DNA of 64,000 bases from Desulfovibrio cuneatus DSM 11391 (GCF_000430005.1 NZ_KE387019.1:53598-117597), one strand, 5' to 3'; numbered from the stretch's first letter, positions 353 through 17,574 are shown. Numbers and translations are program-made. Notes: generated by a model from the sequence alone, not told the origin.

Positions 353-1036
353 ATGCAACAGGCCGAAATGCTGCTTCAGTATTATGCTGCCATGCACAGG
401 CATTTTGGCCCAAGCCACTGGTGGCCGGGTGAAACGCCCTTTGAGGTGGCAGTGGGGGCCGTGCTTACCCAGAACACAGCGTGGCGCAATGTGGAAAAGG
501 CCATGGGCCTGCTGCGGCAGGCAAATGCCCTTTCCCCCCTGGTCATGCATGAACTTTCTTTGCCAGAGTTGGAAGCATGTTTGCTTCCTTCCGGGTTTTA
601 TCGTATGAAAGCACAGCGTCTGCGGGCGCTTCTGGCATTTTTTGCCAGGGTGGCAGGGCAGGCTTCCCCGCCAAATGACCCCAGCCTTGCCTTTTTGCGC
701 CACCTGGAAACAGAGACCCTGCGCCCCATGTTGCTGGAAATTAACGGCATTGGCCCGGAAACGGCAGATTGTATTTTGCTGTATGCCTTGCAACGCCCGG
801 TGTTTGTAGTAGATGCCTACACAAGGCGCATGTGCAGCAGGCACGGGGTTGTGCCACCAAAAATAAACTACCATGAATTGCAAGCCTTTTTCAGTGATGT
901 TTTGCCACAGGAAACAGCCCTTTTTAATGAATACCATGCACTTATTGTACGCACAGGCAAGGAGTTTTGCGCAAAAAGCAAACCCCGCTGTAAGGAATGC
1001 CCTTTGGGGGGCTTTCTTGAGCGTGCCGTGGAATAG
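353..1036 (+). CDS. HhH-GPD DNA glycosylase, MagIII/endonuclease III-like
   Basis: A 227-residue base-excision-repair glycosylase. The helix-hairpin-helix is at residues 128-147 (EINGIGPETAD) and the catalytic Asp is D154 in VVDAYTRR. The Lys that makes endonuclease III a bifunctional lyase is Glu here (E136), as in monofunctional alkylpurine glycosylases such as Helicobacter MagIII, so removal of 3-methyladenine-like lesions is the likely role. The C-terminal iron-sulfur loop keeps three cysteines (C206, C213, C216) but has Leu at the expected fourth position (222). The start at 353 is chosen because AGGAG lies 6 bases upstream and the frame further upstream is only R1 repeat. Family call is firm; substrate is inferred. 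Confidence 0.85.
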   Translation: MQQAEMLLQYYAAMHRHFGPSHWWPGETPFEVAVGAVLTQNTAWRNVEKAMGLLRQANALSPLVMHELSLPELEACLLPSGFYRMKAQRLRALLAFFARVAGQASPPNDPSLAFLRHLETETLRPMLLEINGIGPETADCILLYALQRPVFVVDAYTRRMCSRHGVVPPKINYHELQAFFSDVLPQETALFNEYHALIVRTGKEFCAKSKPRCKECPLGGFLERAVE

Positions 1037-9811: not shown

Positions 9812-9938
9812 GGAAACGCTGAGTTTTTCGTTTGGCAAGGCACGAGTTTTTTTGAAGCAGGAGTGGACTCTTCCGTCCTCGACTGTTTCAAAAAAAGCGA
9901 AGTAACGTAGCCAAACGGAATAACTCAGCGTTTCCTAA
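9812..9938. repeat. family B repeat, near-complete copy
   Basis: GGAAACGCTGAG (9812-9823) and CTCAGCGTTTCC (9924-9935) are exact inverted ends, followed inward by CGTTTGGC/GCCAAACG and a core TTTTTTTGAAGCAG.../...TGTTTCAAAAAAA. The whole can fold as one long hairpin. The right edge CCTAAGG contains the TAG stop codon of the pps-like gene on the minus strand. Confidence 0.9.
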
Positions 9939-12508
9939 GGTAGTTGCATGGGGGGACGGCGTGCCAGCACCACCATATCTTCCAGCATTTGCAGGCGTTT
10001 AATGGTAAGTGCCTGTTCGTCTGTCATAATCATGTCAAGCTGGCGGGTGTGCATAACAAGGTAGCCAATAACCCGTAAGGTGCTGAGCAGTTGTTCTTCT
10101 TCCCCACCTTCCATCCGAGCTGTCAGGGTGTCGCCCACAATTTCCGTGGAGCAGTCAAACTGGGCCAGCAGTTCTGCCACAAAATGCACGCGGCGTATGC
10201 GTCTGCTCAGGTTGGCAGCGCCTCCCTTGAACTGGAACACAATGAAGCGTTCCCGCGGGCGGCTGCTTAAAAAGCAGTCCAGGGAAAGAAAGTGGAAGCC
10301 AAAACGGCAGCGCATGCTGCAAAACTGGCGGGAAATAAGGAATGTATTTTTTTCTGAATAGTGGCTTGCGCCAGAGGCCGGGTCCAGGTTGGGGTTTTGG
10401 GTAGCCTCAAACAGCACGGAAAGAAAGCCCTTGGCATCAAGTTGTGGCGGGCCATCCCAGGGTTTGTCGGAAAAGCCTTCCCACAGGGTGCGCATGGGCA
10501 AGGAAGCGATTTCTTCCAGCTTTACCGCAGGGCCTTTAATGTCGCCATAAAAGCCGTCTTCCAGGTTAATAATCCAGAACTGTTTGGGCACATCGCACAC
10601 CAGTTGCTTTGCCGGTACGTGGGCAGATTTGCTGGAGGTGCCATGGCGGAACATTTCGCGCACGGCGTGGTCGTGGCAATAGGCCAAAAAGTCGTGAAAC
10701 GTAGTGCAGTTCTCTGCCCGGAAGTCCAGGGCGTCGGAATCGGGTATGGAAAGGCTGGCCACAAGGGGGGCAAGGTTGCGGGCCATAATGGCAATGTCGC
10801 TGCCGGAAAGCCACAGGTAGCCCTGGTCGGTGCTGTGCCCTTTGCACTGGCGTGCTTTATAGTCTTGGGCAAGTTGGCACAGGCTGTGCACGGTAGGCAG
10901 GGTGCACTCTTCCAGCCCTTCCCCCGGGCAGGTGTTCTCCCCTTTGGGGCAGGGCCGCAAGCCGGAATTGCCGTGGGGGTTGGCAATAAGCAATAATTCA
11001 GTATCCGGGTCAATGGCTTCCAGTACCTGTGGGCACTGCAACAGGGTTGGCCTGCCATAGCGGCGCGCCGTAAGGGCAAAGGGGCCAGCGCCGGAGCCGT
11101 CGCAGGCAATGGCACCAGAGGCAAAATCCAGCAAAAATGTCCAGCGCGGTGCCGCCTGTTGCAGCACCAGTATGCCCCCAATGGGAAACAGCAGGGCGTC
11201 ATTAAAATTACGCACCAGGTGGGGCTTGCCATAGGCTACTCCAGGGTAGTTGGCGCTGCCCCCGGCAATAAACCCCTGGTCTGCTGGCAGGGTAATGTTC
11301 AGGGTTTCCGCGTCCGGGTCTGGCAGGGCCATGGCCCCCAGCACGGCAAAGGTGCCGTCTTCCCCCACAACCCAGTAAATTTCATGGCGGTTGCCTGGCA
11401 CCGGGGCGTCGCTTAGGCACACCAGGGCTTCCAGGCTTTTTTGGCGCAACTCTTCCAGCATGGAGCCGGGCAGGCTGCTTACGTCCAGGGTGGATTCTCC
11501 TTCCGCACAGGTATAGTTGCGGCGAAGGTGCACTTCCACTTCATTGGCAAGGGTGCCGGGCACCATCGGGCGGTGGGCGCTGCCACGGGCCTGCTGGGCG
11601 GAGTGAACGGAAAAGCACACGCAAAAAGGCATGGCCCGGTCGCGAATGCCCAGCTTGAGCCGGTAAAGCATGGCGCGGGGGCGGTAGGGCAGGGTAAAGG
11701 CACGCAGCAGGCAGTCGTACAGGGCGGTGCTGCTGGTAATGGGGGTGTTTATAACCTGTTCCGGCAGGCGCAGGGCGCTGTGTTCAGTGCGCACAGGCAG
11801 GCAGCGAATAAGCAGGCACTTGCCAGGGGCAGCCAGTTCTTCCCTGAGCTGTTCAAAGGCAGCGTCCAGTTCTTCTTTCAGGTTGTCTGGCAGGCTAAAG
11901 GAAGAAAGAATGCGCTCGCGTATGGCCATAGCCGCTTCGTGGTAGCTATTGGGGTCTTCTTGGGAAATAAGCATGATGCGGTCAATTTCATCATGCAGGG
12001 CAGGGTGCTGCACAAAATTCCACCATGCCGCACCAGTTACAATAAACCCGCTGGGTACGTATTCAGGGTGCTGCTTTGTAATGGCCGAAATTTTTGTCAC
12101 GCTTGCAGAAATAATAGGGGTGTGCTCTTCCGTCACGGCGGGGTAGGGCACAACCAGTGGCCCTTGCAGGGGCCAGGTGCTGGCGTTCAGTTGTTGCTGA
12201 ATTTTGGCCCGCAACGCATTAAAGGGCTCATTCAGGCGGGCAAAGGCAGGGCCGCCAAGGGCTTGCACGTGCATAATGCACTGCATGGTGGCAATGCCAA
12301 GGCGGGCGGTACAGGCCCGCAAAAAAGGCATGCCAACGGGCACTTCGCTGGCAAGGCGCTCTTCAAAGGTCATCATTTCGCTGTAGGCATCAATGTGGGC
12401 ACTTAAAAACAGCTTGAAACGATGAAAGCGTGAGGCAAACGATTCTTTTTGCGGGGCAGGGACTTCAGGTAAAACCCCTTTGAACATGCGGCGCAGCAGG
12501 CTTAGCAT
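9935..12508 (-). CDS. PEP-synthase/PPDK-like protein lacking the catalytic His
   Basis: An 857-residue cytoplasmic protein. Residues about 110-430 resemble the PEP/pyruvate-binding (ATP-grasp) domain, including VPSGFIVTGAAWW, but the usual RSSAT-type segment reads IRCLPVRTE. Residues about 440-520 resemble the swivelling phosphohistidine domain (GGILVLQQAAPRW, then TARRYGRPTLL), but the segment normally G-G-x-T-(S/C)-H-A-A-I is GSGAGPFAL, so Pro stands at about 475 where the phospho-His should be. The PEP-binding barrel is not recognised; instead there is an unfamiliar C-terminal region (about 640-857) containing RPRERFIVFQFKGGAA. It overlaps the response-regulator gene by 7 bases, so the two are translationally linked. 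A regulatory rather than enzymatic role is inferred. Confidence 0.7.
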   Translation of the reverse strand: MLSLLRRMFKGVLPEVPAPQKESFASRFHRFKLFLSAHIDAYSEMMTFEERLASEVPVGMPFLRACTARLGIATMQCIMHVQALGGPAFARLNEPFNALRAKIQQQLNASTWPLQGPLVVPYPAVTEEHTPIISASVTKISAITKQHPEYVPSGFIVTGAAWWNFVQHPALHDEIDRIMLISQEDPNSYHEAAMAIRERILSSFSLPDNLKEELDAAFEQLREELAAPGKCLLIRCLPVRTEHSALRLPEQVINTPITSSTALYDCLLRAFTLPYRPRAMLYRLKLGIRDRAMPFCVCFSVHSAQQARGSAHRPMVPGTLANEVEVHLRRNYTCAEGESTLDVSSLPGSMLEELRQKSLEALVCLSDAPVPGNRHEIYWVVGEDGTFAVLGAMALPDPDAETLNITLPADQGFIAGGSANYPGVAYGKPHLVRNFNDALLFPIGGILVLQQAAPRWTFLLDFASGAIACDGSGAGPFALTARRYGRPTLLQCPQVLEAIDPDTELLLIANPHGNSGLRPCPKGENTCPGEGLEECTLPTVHSLCQLAQDYKARQCKGHSTDQGYLWLSGSDIAIMARNLAPLVASLSIPDSDALDFRAENCTTFHDFLAYCHDHAVREMFRHGTSSKSAHVPAKQLVCDVPKQFWIINLEDGFYGDIKGPAVKLEEIASLPMRTLWEGFSDKPWDGPPQLDAKGFLSVLFEATQNPNLDPASGASHYSEKNTFLISRQFCSMRCRFGFHFLSLDCFLSSRPRERFIVFQFKGGAANLSRRIRRVHFVAELLAQFDCSTEIVGDTLTARMEGGEEEQLLSTLRVIGYLVMHTRQLDMIMTDEQALTIKRLQMLEDMVVLARRPPMQLP

Positions 12509-12897
12509 GCGCTATCCTGCCCGGCCAGTTGTTTCTGGGTGTAGGTATCTTCAATTTTATGCAAGAGAACCTCAAAATTAACAGGTTTCAGCAGGTAATG
12601 GCTTGCGCCCAGTTCCAGCCCTCGCGCGGCGGAGTCCATGTCGGCATGGCCAGAAATAATGATAACGCCCATTTGTTTGTATAATGCGGCTATGTGAGCA
12701 AGCACTTCCAGCCCGTCCATACCAGGCATTTTGACGTCAAGAAGAACAATATCTACCGGGGTAGTTTGCAAAAAGGTAAGGCCTTTTTCCCCGCTGGAGG
12801 CATAGTGTGTTTCCATGCCACGGCGGTTCAAACGCATGCTTAGAATCTCTCCGGAGTCTGCCTCATCATCAATGATGAGCAGTCGAATGGGTTTCAT
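12502..12897 (-). CDS. single-domain response regulator (CheY-like)
   Basis: A 131-residue receiver domain with no output domain. All key residues are present: acidic pair D10-D11 (LLIIDDEAD), phospho-acceptor D54 (VLLDVKMPGMDG), the Ser/Thr position in IIISGHAD and Lys in LLKPVNFE. GGGGAGAGG lies 5 bases before ATG 12897; the in-frame GTG at 12903 is less likely. Its 3' end overlaps the pps-like gene, which is probably its output partner, and a histidine kinase is transcribed divergently from 13434. Confidence 0.93.
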   Translation of the reverse strand: MKPIRLLIIDDEADSGEILSMRLNRRGMETHYASSGEKGLTFLQTTPVDIVLLDVKMPGMDGLEVLAHIAALYKQMGVIIISGHADMDSAARGLELGASHYLLKPVNFEVLLHKIEDTYTQKQLAGQDSAC

Positions 12898-13433
12898 AAA
12901 CACCTCTCCCCGGCGGGGCAGTTTCTAGGTTGTGCAACAGGCTGGGCTTTGGGCAATTCAGCTATTTGCGTTTGGCCCTTATGTTTTGGCTTGCCATTTG
13001 CCTTGGGCTGTTTGCCCGCACACTATGGTTCCTGGCGTTGAAGCTGTTCCAGGTAAGTACAGGCGCATAGAGAATGAACACCCGTGAGTGTATCCAATTC
13101 TCGGCAAAACGCCAAGAGGTTTGCTTGTGCATTCTGTAACAATTATTGCATATTGTGAGGGGAGCAGATGCATTGCCCGCAGCGTTATTGTGGTTTAAGA
13201 TTATTGCGAAATAGTCTTAAGGTGGCTTCCCGCAGGAAGGAAGCTCCAAAACACACCCATAGGGGAGAGTAATTTTCCCGTAAAATGAGTGTTTATTGTA
13301 ATTTAGGGCCTGTTTCGGTATGTGCAGCCAGGACGAAATATGATGGAAAAGCACGCAAAACGTAATTTTCCCATGGTTTAGGTTGAGAGCATGTGCACGT
13401 TGCATATGTTTTAGGAAGAGAAAAGGACACGGT
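12898..13433. other. divergent control region of the two-component locus
   Basis: 536 bases between the response-regulator and kinase starts. It must hold promoters for both directions. It is AT-richer than flanking genes, but no sigma-54 element, operator palindrome or terminator is recognised with confidence. Confidence 0.5.
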
Positions 13434-14555
13434 ATGAACTATTCTTTTTTACGGCTGTTGCCCATGCCTGTACAGCTTGGGGCACGGCTTGCCTTCAGCT
13501 TGATATTTATTGCCCTGGCCTGTGCAGCAGTTGCTACCCTGGCCTTACTGGAAATAACGTCCTTTGCCCCGGCCAATTCCGGCAAAATGTTTGCCTGGGC
13601 TGTGCTGGTGCTTGTGGGAAGCGTGCTTGTTATGCTTGCCCTGCTGTGGAGCATTGTTTCGCGGGAAGTGCTGCGTCCCCTTGAAGCCATTGCAGAAGGT
13701 ATGGAGCAGGAAGGCATTCCCCACTCTCCCCTTGGGCGTGTGGCTGCCAGGGTGGAAGCGTTGCGCGAACAGGTGGAAAGAAAACAGGTGGAGCTGGATG
13801 AAAGTCACCAAACGTTGCGCCAAGTGGAAAAACTGGCCATGGTGGGTAAGCTGGCTGCCGGGGTGGCCCACAGCGTGCGTAACCCCTTAACGGCTGTGAA
13901 GCTGCGCCTGTTTTCCCTGGAGCGCACTATGGAAGTTGGGGCAAAGCAGCAGGAGGATTTTCGGGTAATTACCGATGCCATCAGCCATGTGGACAGCGTG
14001 GTGAGCAATTTTCTGGAATTTTCACGCAGGCCCAGGCTGCAATTGCAGCGCACCAGCCTGTGGTCCGCACTGGACGCCTGCCTGCGTCTTTTGGAAAACA
14101 GACTGGCGGCCTTTCCGGTAAGCACCACTGTGCGCCGCTATGCCAACATGCCAGGCATAGAAGCCGACCCGGAACAACTGCGGGAAGTGATTATGAACCT
14201 GCTGCTGAACGCTTGCGAAGCCATGGATTATAGCGGCAACCTGGTGCTGGAAGAATTTGTGCATGAAGATGGCAAAGGTGCCCTGTTCGCCTGCCTGCGT
14301 ATTACCGATTCCGGCCCCGGCATTCCCGCAGAAAAGCTGGACGTGGTGTTTGAGCCTTTTTACAGCTCCAAGGAATACGGTACCGGGCTGGGCCTACCCA
14401 TTGCCAAAGGAATCATTGAAGAACATGGGGGCGACATTGTGGTAGAATCCTGCCCGCGCAGGGGCACCATGTTCACCATTATGCTGCCAGTGCCTGCCAC
14501 GGAACAAGAGCACAGCCGCATTGCCGGGCGGGGGAAGAGCCCTTATTTACACTAA
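13434..14555 (+). CDS. membrane sensor histidine kinase with HAMP
   Basis: A 373-residue kinase. Two transmembrane helices (about 18-40 and 52-75) are separated by only about 12 residues, so there is no periplasmic sensor domain. HAMP and coiled coil follow (about 76-135), then the dimerisation domain with H146 in GVAHSVRNPLTAVK, and the ATPase domain with N box (NLLLNACEAM), G1 (DSGPGIP), F box (FEPFYSSKEYGTG) and G2 (GLGLPIA). AGGA lies about 7 bases before ATG 13434. It is divergent from the response regulator at 12502-12897, its most likely partner. With no external domain it probably senses a membrane or cytoplasmic cue. Confidence 0.93.
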   Translation: MNYSFLRLLPMPVQLGARLAFSLIFIALACAAVATLALLEITSFAPANSGKMFAWAVLVLVGSVLVMLALLWSIVSREVLRPLEAIAEGMEQEGIPHSPLGRVAARVEALREQVERKQVELDESHQTLRQVEKLAMVGKLAAGVAHSVRNPLTAVKLRLFSLERTMEVGAKQQEDFRVITDAISHVDSVVSNFLEFSRRPRLQLQRTSLWSALDACLRLLENRLAAFPVSTTVRRYANMPGIEADPEQLREVIMNLLLNACEAMDYSGNLVLEEFVHEDGKGALFACLRITDSGPGIPAEKLDVVFEPFYSSKEYGTGLGLPIAKGIIEEHGGDIVVESCPRRGTMFTIMLPVPATEQEHSRIAGRGKSPYLH

Positions 14556-14715: not shown

Positions 14716-17574
14716 ATGAAGAAGGAACGTAACTCTGTTTCTTTAAAAATTCTTGTGCTTTTTTCCGTAGTGGGCAGCATGGTTCTTCTTGCTTCTCTAT
14801 TACTCTACCAAGGGTTTAAAAATACCGAACGCAACTTGCTTAATGCCACTTCCATTACGGCAAAGCATCTTGCCAACACAGCCAATTTCAGCATTAAGGC
14901 AACCCTTGATCCCGCCATGCTGACCATGCGCATGTTAAGCCACCATAGCCTTGCTGAGGCAACAACACTGGAAGAACGGTTACCAAGCCTGCCCATGCTG
15001 GCTGAAATTATTAAAAGTAATGATTTGTTCAACGCTATCTATGTGGGCTACAAGAACGGTGATTTTTTCATGTTGCGCCAGTATGCAGGTGAAATTCCCC
15101 TTCTTACACAGCCCGTGCCGGAACGCACCGCCTATCTTGTCCAGTCTGTGGAGCGTGATGCAGCAGGCGAGGCAAAAGGCACGTTACTGCTTTACAGTGC
15201 TGGCCTGCAATTGCTGGAAACGCGCCCCTTGCCAGAATATCGCTTTGACCCGCGCGAGCGAAGCTGGTTCAAGTTAGCCAATGCTTCGGAAACCATAGAA
15301 ATTACTTCGCCTTACCTGTTTTATTCCACCAAAGAAATAGGCCTGACCATGGCCTTACAGGCAGAGGGCAGAAACGCTGTTTTTGGTCTTGATTCCACCA
15401 TAGAAAACCTGGGTAAATTGCTGGAAACGTTGCGCTTGAGTACCCATGCAGAAGTTGCCATTGTTGACCCCCATGGCAGGCTTGTTGCCTACCCAGACAC
15501 GGACCGCCTGTTGGTGCAAAATGGCGATTCCCTGCAACTGGCAGACCTGACAACGTTGAATGTTCCCATTTTGACTAAGCTCAATAGCCAAAAAGATGAA
15601 GCAGGGCAGCTCACCTTCAGGCTGCATGATGGCAACCAGGAGTGGTTTGGTTTTAAAGAAACTATCAGCGCGTTGGAAACAGATGATATTACCATGCTGG
15701 TGGCAATACCTGCACGGGAATTGCTGGCCCAGGCCTGGACCAATGTATACTTCCAAATGGCTGTTGCGGCGGGGCTTGCCCTGGTTGTTACGGCCCTTAG
15801 CATGTTCTTTAGCCGTGCTGTTATTATCGACCCCGTAACCAGATTGCGCAACCAGATAAGCGCCCTGGAAAATTTTGACTTTACGCAGCCAGTGGGTGTT
15901 ACCACTGTGGTGCGTGAAGTGCAGGAGCTTGGCAAGGTGCTGGGCAACATGGCTGCTGCCATTGGCAGTTTTCAGGCCATTTCCCTTGCCTTGAACAAGG
16001 AACAGAACCTGGAAAAAATGCTGCTTTCCGTTCTTGACCAGCTCATAACCCTGACCAAACAAGAATACGGCGCTGTATACCTGCTGGATGACAGTGGCAA
16101 CCAATTGGTGCCCTTTGTGCATAAGGGTGGGCAGCCGCTGGACGCTATTTTGCTGCCTGGCGCAAACCCCGGCGACGAAGAATTGCTGGCATCCATTCAG
16201 CAAAACAAGCTCGGTTCGGATATTCACGTTATTCTGCGTAACCGCGAACAGGACCTGACGGGCCTGCTTGTGCTGGGAGGCGGGCAGGAAGGCACTGCCC
16301 TGCGGGAAAAACTGCTCCAGTTTACCCACAGAATTGCCGGTTCCGCCGCTGTTGCCATTGAAACCCGGCAGCTTATTCTGGCTCAAAAAGCCCTGCTTGA
16401 TTCCATTATTAAACTGGTGGCAGATGCCATTGATACCAAGTCGCAATATACAGGGGGGCATTGCCAGCGTGTTCCCGTGCTTGCTACCATGCTTATGGAC
16501 AGCATTTGCACTTCGCAAAATCCTGTGTTTGGTGGTTATGGGCTTACTGCCATCCAGAAAGAAGAGTTCCGCATTGCCGCCTGGCTGCATGACTGTGGTA
16601 AAATTACCACCCCGGAATATGTGGTGGACAAAGCCACTAAGCTGGAAACCATTTACAACCGCATTCATGAAATACGCATGCGCTTTGAGGTGCTGCACAG
16701 AGACGCCGCCATGCGCAGCCTGGAAGCCATTCAGGCTGGCGTGCCACAAGCGCAGGCGCAAGAAGAATGCGCACGGGAACAGCAGGCACTTCAGGAAGAA
16801 TACGCCTTTATCGCCAAATGCAATATTGGTGGTGAGGCCATGTCTGATGACGATGTGGCCCGTTTGAAGAGTATTTCTGGCAGAATCTGGATGCGTTACT
16901 TTGACGACCGTCTTGGGCTTTCTCGCGATGAGTTGCTGCGCACCCCCGCCCATGCGGAAGACGCACCCCTGCCTGCGCCGGAAATGCTGCTGGCAGACAA
17001 ACAGTCGCACATCATTCCCTGGGGTGAGCGTATTCCCCCTGTGCAGCCTTCAGACCCGCGCAATAGCCTTGGGTTTGACATGAAACTGCCTGCCTGCATG
17101 TATAACTATGGCGAGGTGTATAACCTGAGCATTCGCCGTGGCACCCTGACGGAAGAAGAACGCTTTAAAATTAACGACCATATTGTGCAAACCATTTGTA
17201 TGCTTTCTGCCCTGCCCTTGCCAAAAACCATGAAGCGTTTGCCGGACATTGCTGGCAACCACCATGAAAAAATAGATGGTACAGGCTACCCCCGGCGGCG
17301 CAAGGGCAGTGAAATGAGCATTGCGGAAAAAGTGATGGTGCTAGCAGATATATTTGAAGCCCTTACGGCTTCAGACAGACCATACAAAGACGGAAAAACC
17401 CTTTCCCAGGCTATGACCCTGCTGGCAAAAATGGCTCAAGAACAGCATGTGGACGTGAATATCTTCAACCACTTCCTGCAATCAGGTATTTACCTGGAGT
17501 ATGGGAAAAAGTACCTGAAAGAAAAACAGGTTGATGCTGTGGATGTGGAACGTTTTTTCATTCAAACAACGTAA
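14716..17574 (+). CDS. membrane receptor with Cache-like, HAMP, GAF and HD-GYP domains
   Basis: A 952-residue putative cyclic-di-GMP phosphodiesterase. TM1 is about 10-32, the periplasmic double-Cache-like sensor 33-350 (with RFDPRERSWF), TM2 about 351-373, HAMP 374-425, GAF-like 430-560 and HD-GYP 570-940. Catalytic motifs are present: GGHCQRV (His about 581), WLHDCGK (about 624), KINDH (about 821), GNHHEKIDGTGYP (about 848-860). About 165 extra residues separate HDCGK from KINDH, far more than in standard HD-GYP domains. ATG 14716 has GGAG 7 bases upstream. It follows the kinase after 160 bases and hairpin D. Diguanylate hydrolysis is inferred from the family. Confidence 0.88.
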   Translation: MKKERNSVSLKILVLFSVVGSMVLLASLLLYQGFKNTERNLLNATSITAKHLANTANFSIKATLDPAMLTMRMLSHHSLAEATTLEERLPSLPMLAEIIKSNDLFNAIYVGYKNGDFFMLRQYAGEIPLLTQPVPERTAYLVQSVERDAAGEAKGTLLLYSAGLQLLETRPLPEYRFDPRERSWFKLANASETIEITSPYLFYSTKEIGLTMALQAEGRNAVFGLDSTIENLGKLLETLRLSTHAEVAIVDPHGRLVAYPDTDRLLVQNGDSLQLADLTTLNVPILTKLNSQKDEAGQLTFRLHDGNQEWFGFKETISALETDDITMLVAIPARELLAQAWTNVYFQMAVAAGLALVVTALSMFFSRAVIIDPVTRLRNQISALENFDFTQPVGVTTVVREVQELGKVLGNMAAAIGSFQAISLALNKEQNLEKMLLSVLDQLITLTKQEYGAVYLLDDSGNQLVPFVHKGGQPLDAILLPGANPGDEELLASIQQNKLGSDIHVILRNREQDLTGLLVLGGGQEGTALREKLLQFTHRIAGSAAVAIETRQLILAQKALLDSIIKLVADAIDTKSQYTGGHCQRVPVLATMLMDSICTSQNPVFGGYGLTAIQKEEFRIAAWLHDCGKITTPEYVVDKATKLETIYNRIHEIRMRFEVLHRDAAMRSLEAIQAGVPQAQAQEECAREQQALQEEYAFIAKCNIGGEAMSDDDVARLKSISGRIWMRYFDDRLGLSRDELLRTPAHAEDAPLPAPEMLLADKQSHIIPWGERIPPVQPSDPRNSLGFDMKLPACMYNYGEVYNLSIRRGTLTEEERFKINDHIVQTICMLSALPLPKTMKRLPDIAGNHHEKIDGTGYPRRRKGSEMSIAEKVMVLADIFEALTASDRPYKDGKTLSQAMTLLAKMAQEQHVDVNIFNHFLQSGIYLEYGKKYLKEKQVDAVDVERFFIQTT

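Follow-up and report, generated by a model that had tools for sequence, protein, structure and literature searches.

A dikinase-like protein without its phospho-histidine, paired with a single-domain response regulator in Desulfovibrio cuneatus, belongs to a widespread Desulfobacterota family

Among the genes of a 64,000-nucleotide stretch of the Desulfovibrio cuneatus DSM 11391 genome (NZ_KE387019.1:53598-117597; referred to here as the window), one encodes an 857-residue protein that has the N-terminal fold of phosphoenolpyruvate (PEP) synthase and overlaps by 7 bp (bases 12502-12508) the gene of a single-domain response regulator (RR). By sequence comparison, the window protein is a member of a large, widespread and unnamed Desulfobacterota family (the DVU0246 type), and the signalling role belongs to that whole family, not to this protein alone. 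The residues of ATP and phospho-histidine chemistry have been replaced in the window protein and in its nearest relatives, and every genome with such a His-less copy also carries an intact paralogue. Our belief and our doubt are about evenly balanced in the reading that the window protein is a pseudo-dikinase, acting as the non-catalytic regulatory partner of the intact paralogue in an RR-controlled, probably anion-transport-linked pathway. Coordinates are collected in Table 1.

Table 1. Features of the locus and of the window protein (positions counted from the first base of the window)
Feature	Residues	Position	Strand	Remark
Pseudo-dikinase gene		9935..12508	-	open reading frame (ORF) of 857 aa
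Single-domain RR gene		12502..12903	-	133 aa from GTG; ATG two codons on
Divergent histidine kinase (HK) gene		13428..14555	+	375 aa; mere neighbour of the RR/pseudo-dikinase pair
N-helical region	about 1-110
Degenerate ATP-grasp domain	116-400
R235 codon	235	11804..11806	-	start of broken RSSA (R-C-L-P), ATP-grasp; coordinate computed from residue number
Degenerate swivel domain	411-521			Pro476 at the His position; followed by a linker and the C-terminal domain
Pro476 codon	476	11081..11083	-	phospho-histidine position of swivel domain; coordinate computed from residue number
C-terminal domain	566-851	9956..10813	-	without Pfam, NCBIfam or PDB sequence relative

A sequence-only reading of the locus had described the overlapping gene pair, a PEP synthase-like N-terminal and swivel architecture, proline in place of the catalytic histidine, a broken RSSAT segment and the lack of a PEP-binding barrel, and all of these held. 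In profile searches the Pfam matches were limited to the initial segment of PPDK_N (residues 151-298, 35.3 bits, cut-off 27) and the swivel domain (PEP-utilizers, residues 444-504, 27.5 bits, cut-off 23.1), both just over the cut-off. The predicted structure (mean predicted local distance difference test score, pLDDT, 81.7) consists of a helical N-terminal region, an ATP-grasp/swivel pair and a separate C-terminal domain. Residues 115-521 of the full model aligned with rifampin phosphotransferase (RPH; 5hv2, Z 27.3, root-mean-square deviation 4.8 over 368), the closest fold for this segment, and with PEP synthase (2ols, Z 23.7, deviation 4.7 over 333), while Enzyme I N-domain entries aligned with the swivel phospho-His domain at Z about 10-15. 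Searched alone against PDB sequences, the protein gave weak PEP synthase matches only, and PADLOC found no defence-family match for the dikinase proteins. No PEP-binding barrel is present: Pfam matched nothing in the C-terminal part, and the model predicts a mixed alpha/beta fold there instead of an alternating eight-fold barrel.

The family alignment has P476 in the column of the swivel His (GSGAGPFALTAR versus GS.AGHLANVARE) and R235-C-L-P in place of the R-S-S-A segment. The ATP-grasp fold is present by structure alignment, with the catalytic residues at the K136, RSS, E241, E378, Q391 and R393 positions lost; besides the RSS segment the replacements are K136S, E241T, D242E, E378Y, Q391G and R393M. 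When 164 His-bearing rows were compared with 26 His-less rows, K136, S236/S237, E241, E378, Q391 and H476 were near-invariant in the former, and in the latter the residues of ATP and phosphate chemistry were replaced wholesale by unrelated ones; the His position holds Arg in 17 of the 26, Gln in 4, Leu in 2, and Pro, Tyr or Met in the others. The two Pfam matches above cut-off are what speaks for an active PEP synthase or related dikinase with its histidine elsewhere, which is hardly credible: the ATP-grasp catalytic residues have gone too, the PEP barrel is absent, and the protein scores 52.8 bits against the PEP_synth model (TIGR01418), where the cut-off is 739.75. Against RIF_Ptrans_rph it scores 33.4 bits (cut-off 999), far from a full-length match that includes the rifampin-binding domain. 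The sequence-only reading had also offered a sensor of ATP, pyruvate or PEP, which is unlikely for the window protein because its ATP-site residues are gone and the PEP/pyruvate barrel is missing.

The family shares one domain order (N-helical region, ATP-grasp, His-swivel and C-terminal domain), which the window protein follows in a full-length alignment. Family members were detected in 39 of the 59 relatives searched, and the C-terminal domain in 89 of 247 genomes of the phylum, so that roughly one in three of the sampled Desulfobacterota genomes carries the family, some in several to many copies. In intact members the match to the PEP synthase model begins at the model's start and stops near position 466 of 784; the barrel has been replaced. 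Single-domain RRs lie within 2.5 kb of 93 of the 115 members with enough flanking sequence, HKs within that distance of 68 and TauE-type permeases of 49 of the same 115; within 300 bp, 72 of 157 members have a single-domain RR. True PEP synthases (PpsA) of the same order had none in 12 (2.5 kb) or 13 (300 bp) cases, and although the family samples were gathered by similarity and the counts are not unbiased frequencies, the contrast with PpsA is large. The family thus lies mostly near two-component genes, yet in the searched family libraries its members have either no name or that of a metabolic enzyme. The proposal that a PEP synthase fold has been recruited into two-component signalling gains from this recurrent linkage across Desulfobacterota and from published genetics that place a similar gene pair in one pathway (PMC4001038). 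Loss of the histidine as the route to that role does not fit, because most family members (164 His-bearing rows against the 26 His-less ones above) keep both the His and the ATP-grasp site while also being linked to an RR. The association with TauE-type permeases had escaped the earlier reading, as had the intact paralogue present wherever a His-less copy occurs.

The window RR belongs to the single-domain (CheY-like) class: PF00072 covers residues 9-117 of its 133 (97.6 bits), the acidic pair, the phospho-acceptor Asp (LLDVKMPG) and the Lys (LLKP) are all intact in alignment, and an output domain is absent. The 7-bp overlap gives the window protein the adjoining single-domain RR that marks the family.

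A recurrent layout in the family runs HK, one to three RRs, TauE, a 230-aa protein, and dikinase. The 230-aa protein (L134:3385-4074 and homologues) has hydrophobic ends and matches neither a Pfam nor an NCBIfam family. In such clusters it nearly always comes after the TauE-type permease, and 28 of the 59 relatives have it.

The C-terminal domain had been called a new region of the window protein. It has no Pfam, NCBIfam or PDB sequence relative; it is not specific to the window protein, being the best conserved part of the whole large family. The window protein holds the family invariants C601, H605, D606, H612, H739, R773, D793, R822 and D825, and C601, D606, H739, G762/763 and R773 are kept in the 26 His-less rows. 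No PDB sequence matched the domain at E up to 10, and no Pfam family did so reproducibly across 70 members. Its model has a pLDDT of 86.4 and fold searches gave weak matches (best Foldseek E 0.02, best VIA Z 5.9), a result that does not amount to proof of a new fold. The conserved C-x3-HD-x5-H motif together with His739 suggests a putative metal or active site. Retention of C601/H605/D606/H612 and H739 in both His and His-less clades would also agree with an enzyme of altered chemistry, in which the swivel is phosphate-free and the C-terminal domain is itself catalytic, possibly metal dependent, with no dikinase step, and the weak fold matches leave room for catalysis by an unrecognised fold. 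We regard this as improbable, as the domain shows no motif or fold of a known enzyme, and H605 varies in 2 and H612 in 4 of the 26 His-less rows.

All His-less proteins form one clade in trees of the C-terminal domain alone, outside which the lost residues lie (support of 98 in the Shimodaira-Hasegawa-like approximate likelihood ratio test, SH-aLRT, with 22 and then with 28 rows). On this tree, ATP-site and His chemistry was lost once, in one clade, later than the RR linkage of the family. Some copies (G311, G339 and G359) score as high as the His-less ones and yet keep the His; therefore His-less copies were classified by sequence and tree, not by score. Between the window protein and its sister-species orthologue the pairwise ratio of nonsynonymous to synonymous substitution rates (dN/dS) was about 0.11 in the C-terminal domain, 0.22 in the N-helical region, 0.37 in ATP-grasp and 0.32 in the swivel, and in the intact paralogue 0.22 (ATP-grasp) and 0.16 (swivel), values that are rough since dS is near saturation. 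The higher ATP-grasp and swivel ratios of the window protein are what a decaying pseudogene on its way out would give, and two damaged His-less copies can be cited for it as well: one is split into two overlapping frames (L037:442-3170) and another is cut to 365 aa (L238:6214-7311), by assembly error or local decay. Such an explanation is very unlikely given that a frame of about 850 aa stays open in many genera, that dN/dS lies far under 1 in every domain, that the C-terminal invariants are intact, and that there was one old loss in place of scattered losses. Judged by these ratios and residues, the window protein is a pseudo-enzyme constrained by purifying selection and not a decaying gene.

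A His-less member was found in 44 of 247 family genomes, of which 39 were picked out by score and another 5 from their sequence (one of these a fragment), and all 44 carry a partner from the intact clade, one of the partners being cut by a contig end and recognised by sequence. These partner genes form a supported clade of their own (98, 31 rows). The converse is inexact, as a few genomes carry the intact clade without a His-less member. Gut Desulfovibrio, Nitratidesulfovibrio with its relatives and one more genus (G309, G338) have clusters in the order pseudo-dikinase, HK, RR and active dikinase, some of which adjoin TauE and the 230-aa gene. In the genome of the window (G000) the partner lies on another contig with its own RR, and contig geometry puts the distance at about 100 kb or more. 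Within the window's genus, four species have both genes, unlinked in G000, and eleven have neither.

The same data bear on a stand-alone ligand sensor or output, in which the His-less protein works without the intact paralogue: phosphorylated RR would bind the N-terminal part, the C-terminal domain would bind a ligand or a target protein directly, and co-occurrence would merely reflect shared operon ancestry. The RR pair that the earlier reading pointed out is indeed conserved, being kept in the window's genus and in G031 by itself with the paralogue elsewhere, and the C-terminal domain is the most constrained part of the protein; both facts are as a stand-alone protein would have them. Co-occurrence in 44 of 44 genomes and the one-operon arrangement in several genera argue the other way, and we consider this explanation a real but lesser possibility.

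If the window protein is instead the regulatory partner of an intact dikinase, the pathway might run as follows. The intact enzymes would pass a phosphoryl group from ATP to the swivel His and from there to an acceptor handled by the C-terminal domain, a route comparable to that of RPH, which has a different acceptor domain. Phosphorylated RR would bind the dikinase and thereby gate phosphotransfer. The window protein, as a non-catalytic subunit or competitor, would bind its own RR and a C-terminal ligand or target and in this way tune its intact paralogue (G000:C2), and the pathway would probably act on an anion transport system of the TauE type. More broadly, and only tentatively, RRs without output domains may control a dikinase made of an intact and a dead subunit that phosphorylates its acceptor, or modifies it in another way, through the new C-terminal domain and gates the transport of anions (sulfate, thiosulfate or nitrate-like) in sulfate reducers. 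We hold this to be less likely than not; such a type of two-component output is not described in the literature searched. No paper on the pairing of an RR with a PEP synthase-like protein was found beyond Korte et al. (2014), and term searches in Rajeev 2011, in the paper on G20 energy and in the review of sulfate transporters returned nothing on it.

The closest described system is the "nitrate cluster" of Desulfovibrio (DVU0251-DVU0245 and Dde_0597-0605; Korte et al. 2014, PMC4001038). In D. vulgaris the same nitrate resistance results from transposon insertions in DVU0251 (TauE-like), DVU0247 (RR, 360 bp) and DVU0246 (PPDK-like), and the authors suggested a leaky thiosulfate transporter (PMC4001038). 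From the locus layout and the published domains we infer that DVU0246 is a family member; loci laid out as PtxB-like protein, HK, RR of 119 to 121 aa and dikinase-like gene encode family members with the His and the C-terminal motif intact. The shared phenotype of the insertions in DVU0247, DVU0246 and DVU0251 suggests that, for at least one family member, the regulator, the dikinase and the permease work in the same pathway. The cluster resembles the systems described here in having a TauE-like permease, an HK, a single-domain RR and a protein with PPDK and PEP-utilising domains as neighbours, and loci of the same layout (L240, L242) carry members with the same C-terminal domain. It differs in that the dikinase-like member of the same-layout loci is distant and retains the swivel His, and that PtxB and phosphatase genes are present, whereas the window protein is His-less and accompanied by an RR only.

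Several points weigh against the regulatory-partner reading, to which the roughness of the dN/dS values belongs. The nitrate genetics concern the distant, intact member type and not the His-less clade, and polar effects of operon insertions are possible. The window locus lacks a TauE gene; G000 has its TauE/230-aa pair on a different contig (C14, L264). Co-occurrence of pseudo and intact genes is phylogenetically clustered in a handful of genera, and the genomes of several of the eleven genus members with neither gene are incomplete, so that a single joint loss could account for the eleven. Were the reading correct, sulfate reducers would use PEP synthase-type phosphotransfer as an output of signalling. 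This would account for the protection of Desulfovibrio from nitrate by an inactivated "PPDK-like" gene, a matter of practical weight for souring control; the intact/dead pair would also be a clean system for studying how a dead phosphotransferase regulates a live one.

Among better known proteins, PEP synthase (pyruvate, water dikinase) has the same order of ATP-grasp and phospho-His swivel; the family differs from it by an extra N-helical region and the new C-terminal domain in place of the PEP/pyruvate barrel, and the window clade also by the missing His and ATP-site residues. RPH is likewise a PEP synthase-like ATP-grasp/His machine with a different acceptor domain, but that domain lies between the ATP-grasp and His domains, and its His is intact; we know of no RR link of RPH. 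Pyruvate phosphate dikinase (PPDK) and Enzyme I of the phosphotransferase system (PTS) share the swivel phospho-His domain, and both end in a PEP-binding barrel. Pseudokinases are catalytically dead paralogues kept with an active one as regulator, and the pair described here may be analogous to them, although the fold is unrelated.

The divergent HK noted in the earlier reading is a real gene, with two likely membrane spans and a short loop as judged by reading its sequence, and the end coordinate given there for the locus, 13433, falls inside it. As a partner it did not stand: in sister species (L034, L035, L036) the same RR-dikinase pair has no homologous HK next to it, and because of this absence it is not a conserved partner and should not be assumed cognate. 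Next to the HK, positions 14716-17574 of the window encode a protein of 952 aa that has an HD_5 domain and matches dCache weakly.

The intact paralogue and RR of G000 (C2, L088:7298-13632) have rapZ, an hpf-like gene and rpoN as immediate neighbours, in a region where PTS-Ntr genes often lie; this neighbourhood was considered as a functional clue and dropped because the other loci examined do not share it. One genome carries three tandem family genes (L067:5495-13486), two of them very divergent with long branches. An ORF of about 1,200 aa (G000:C27:24526-26040), present in nearly all relatives, matches PEP synthase from about model position 58; it is larger than PpsA and scores below the cut-off, and may be the true PEP synthase or a fused one.

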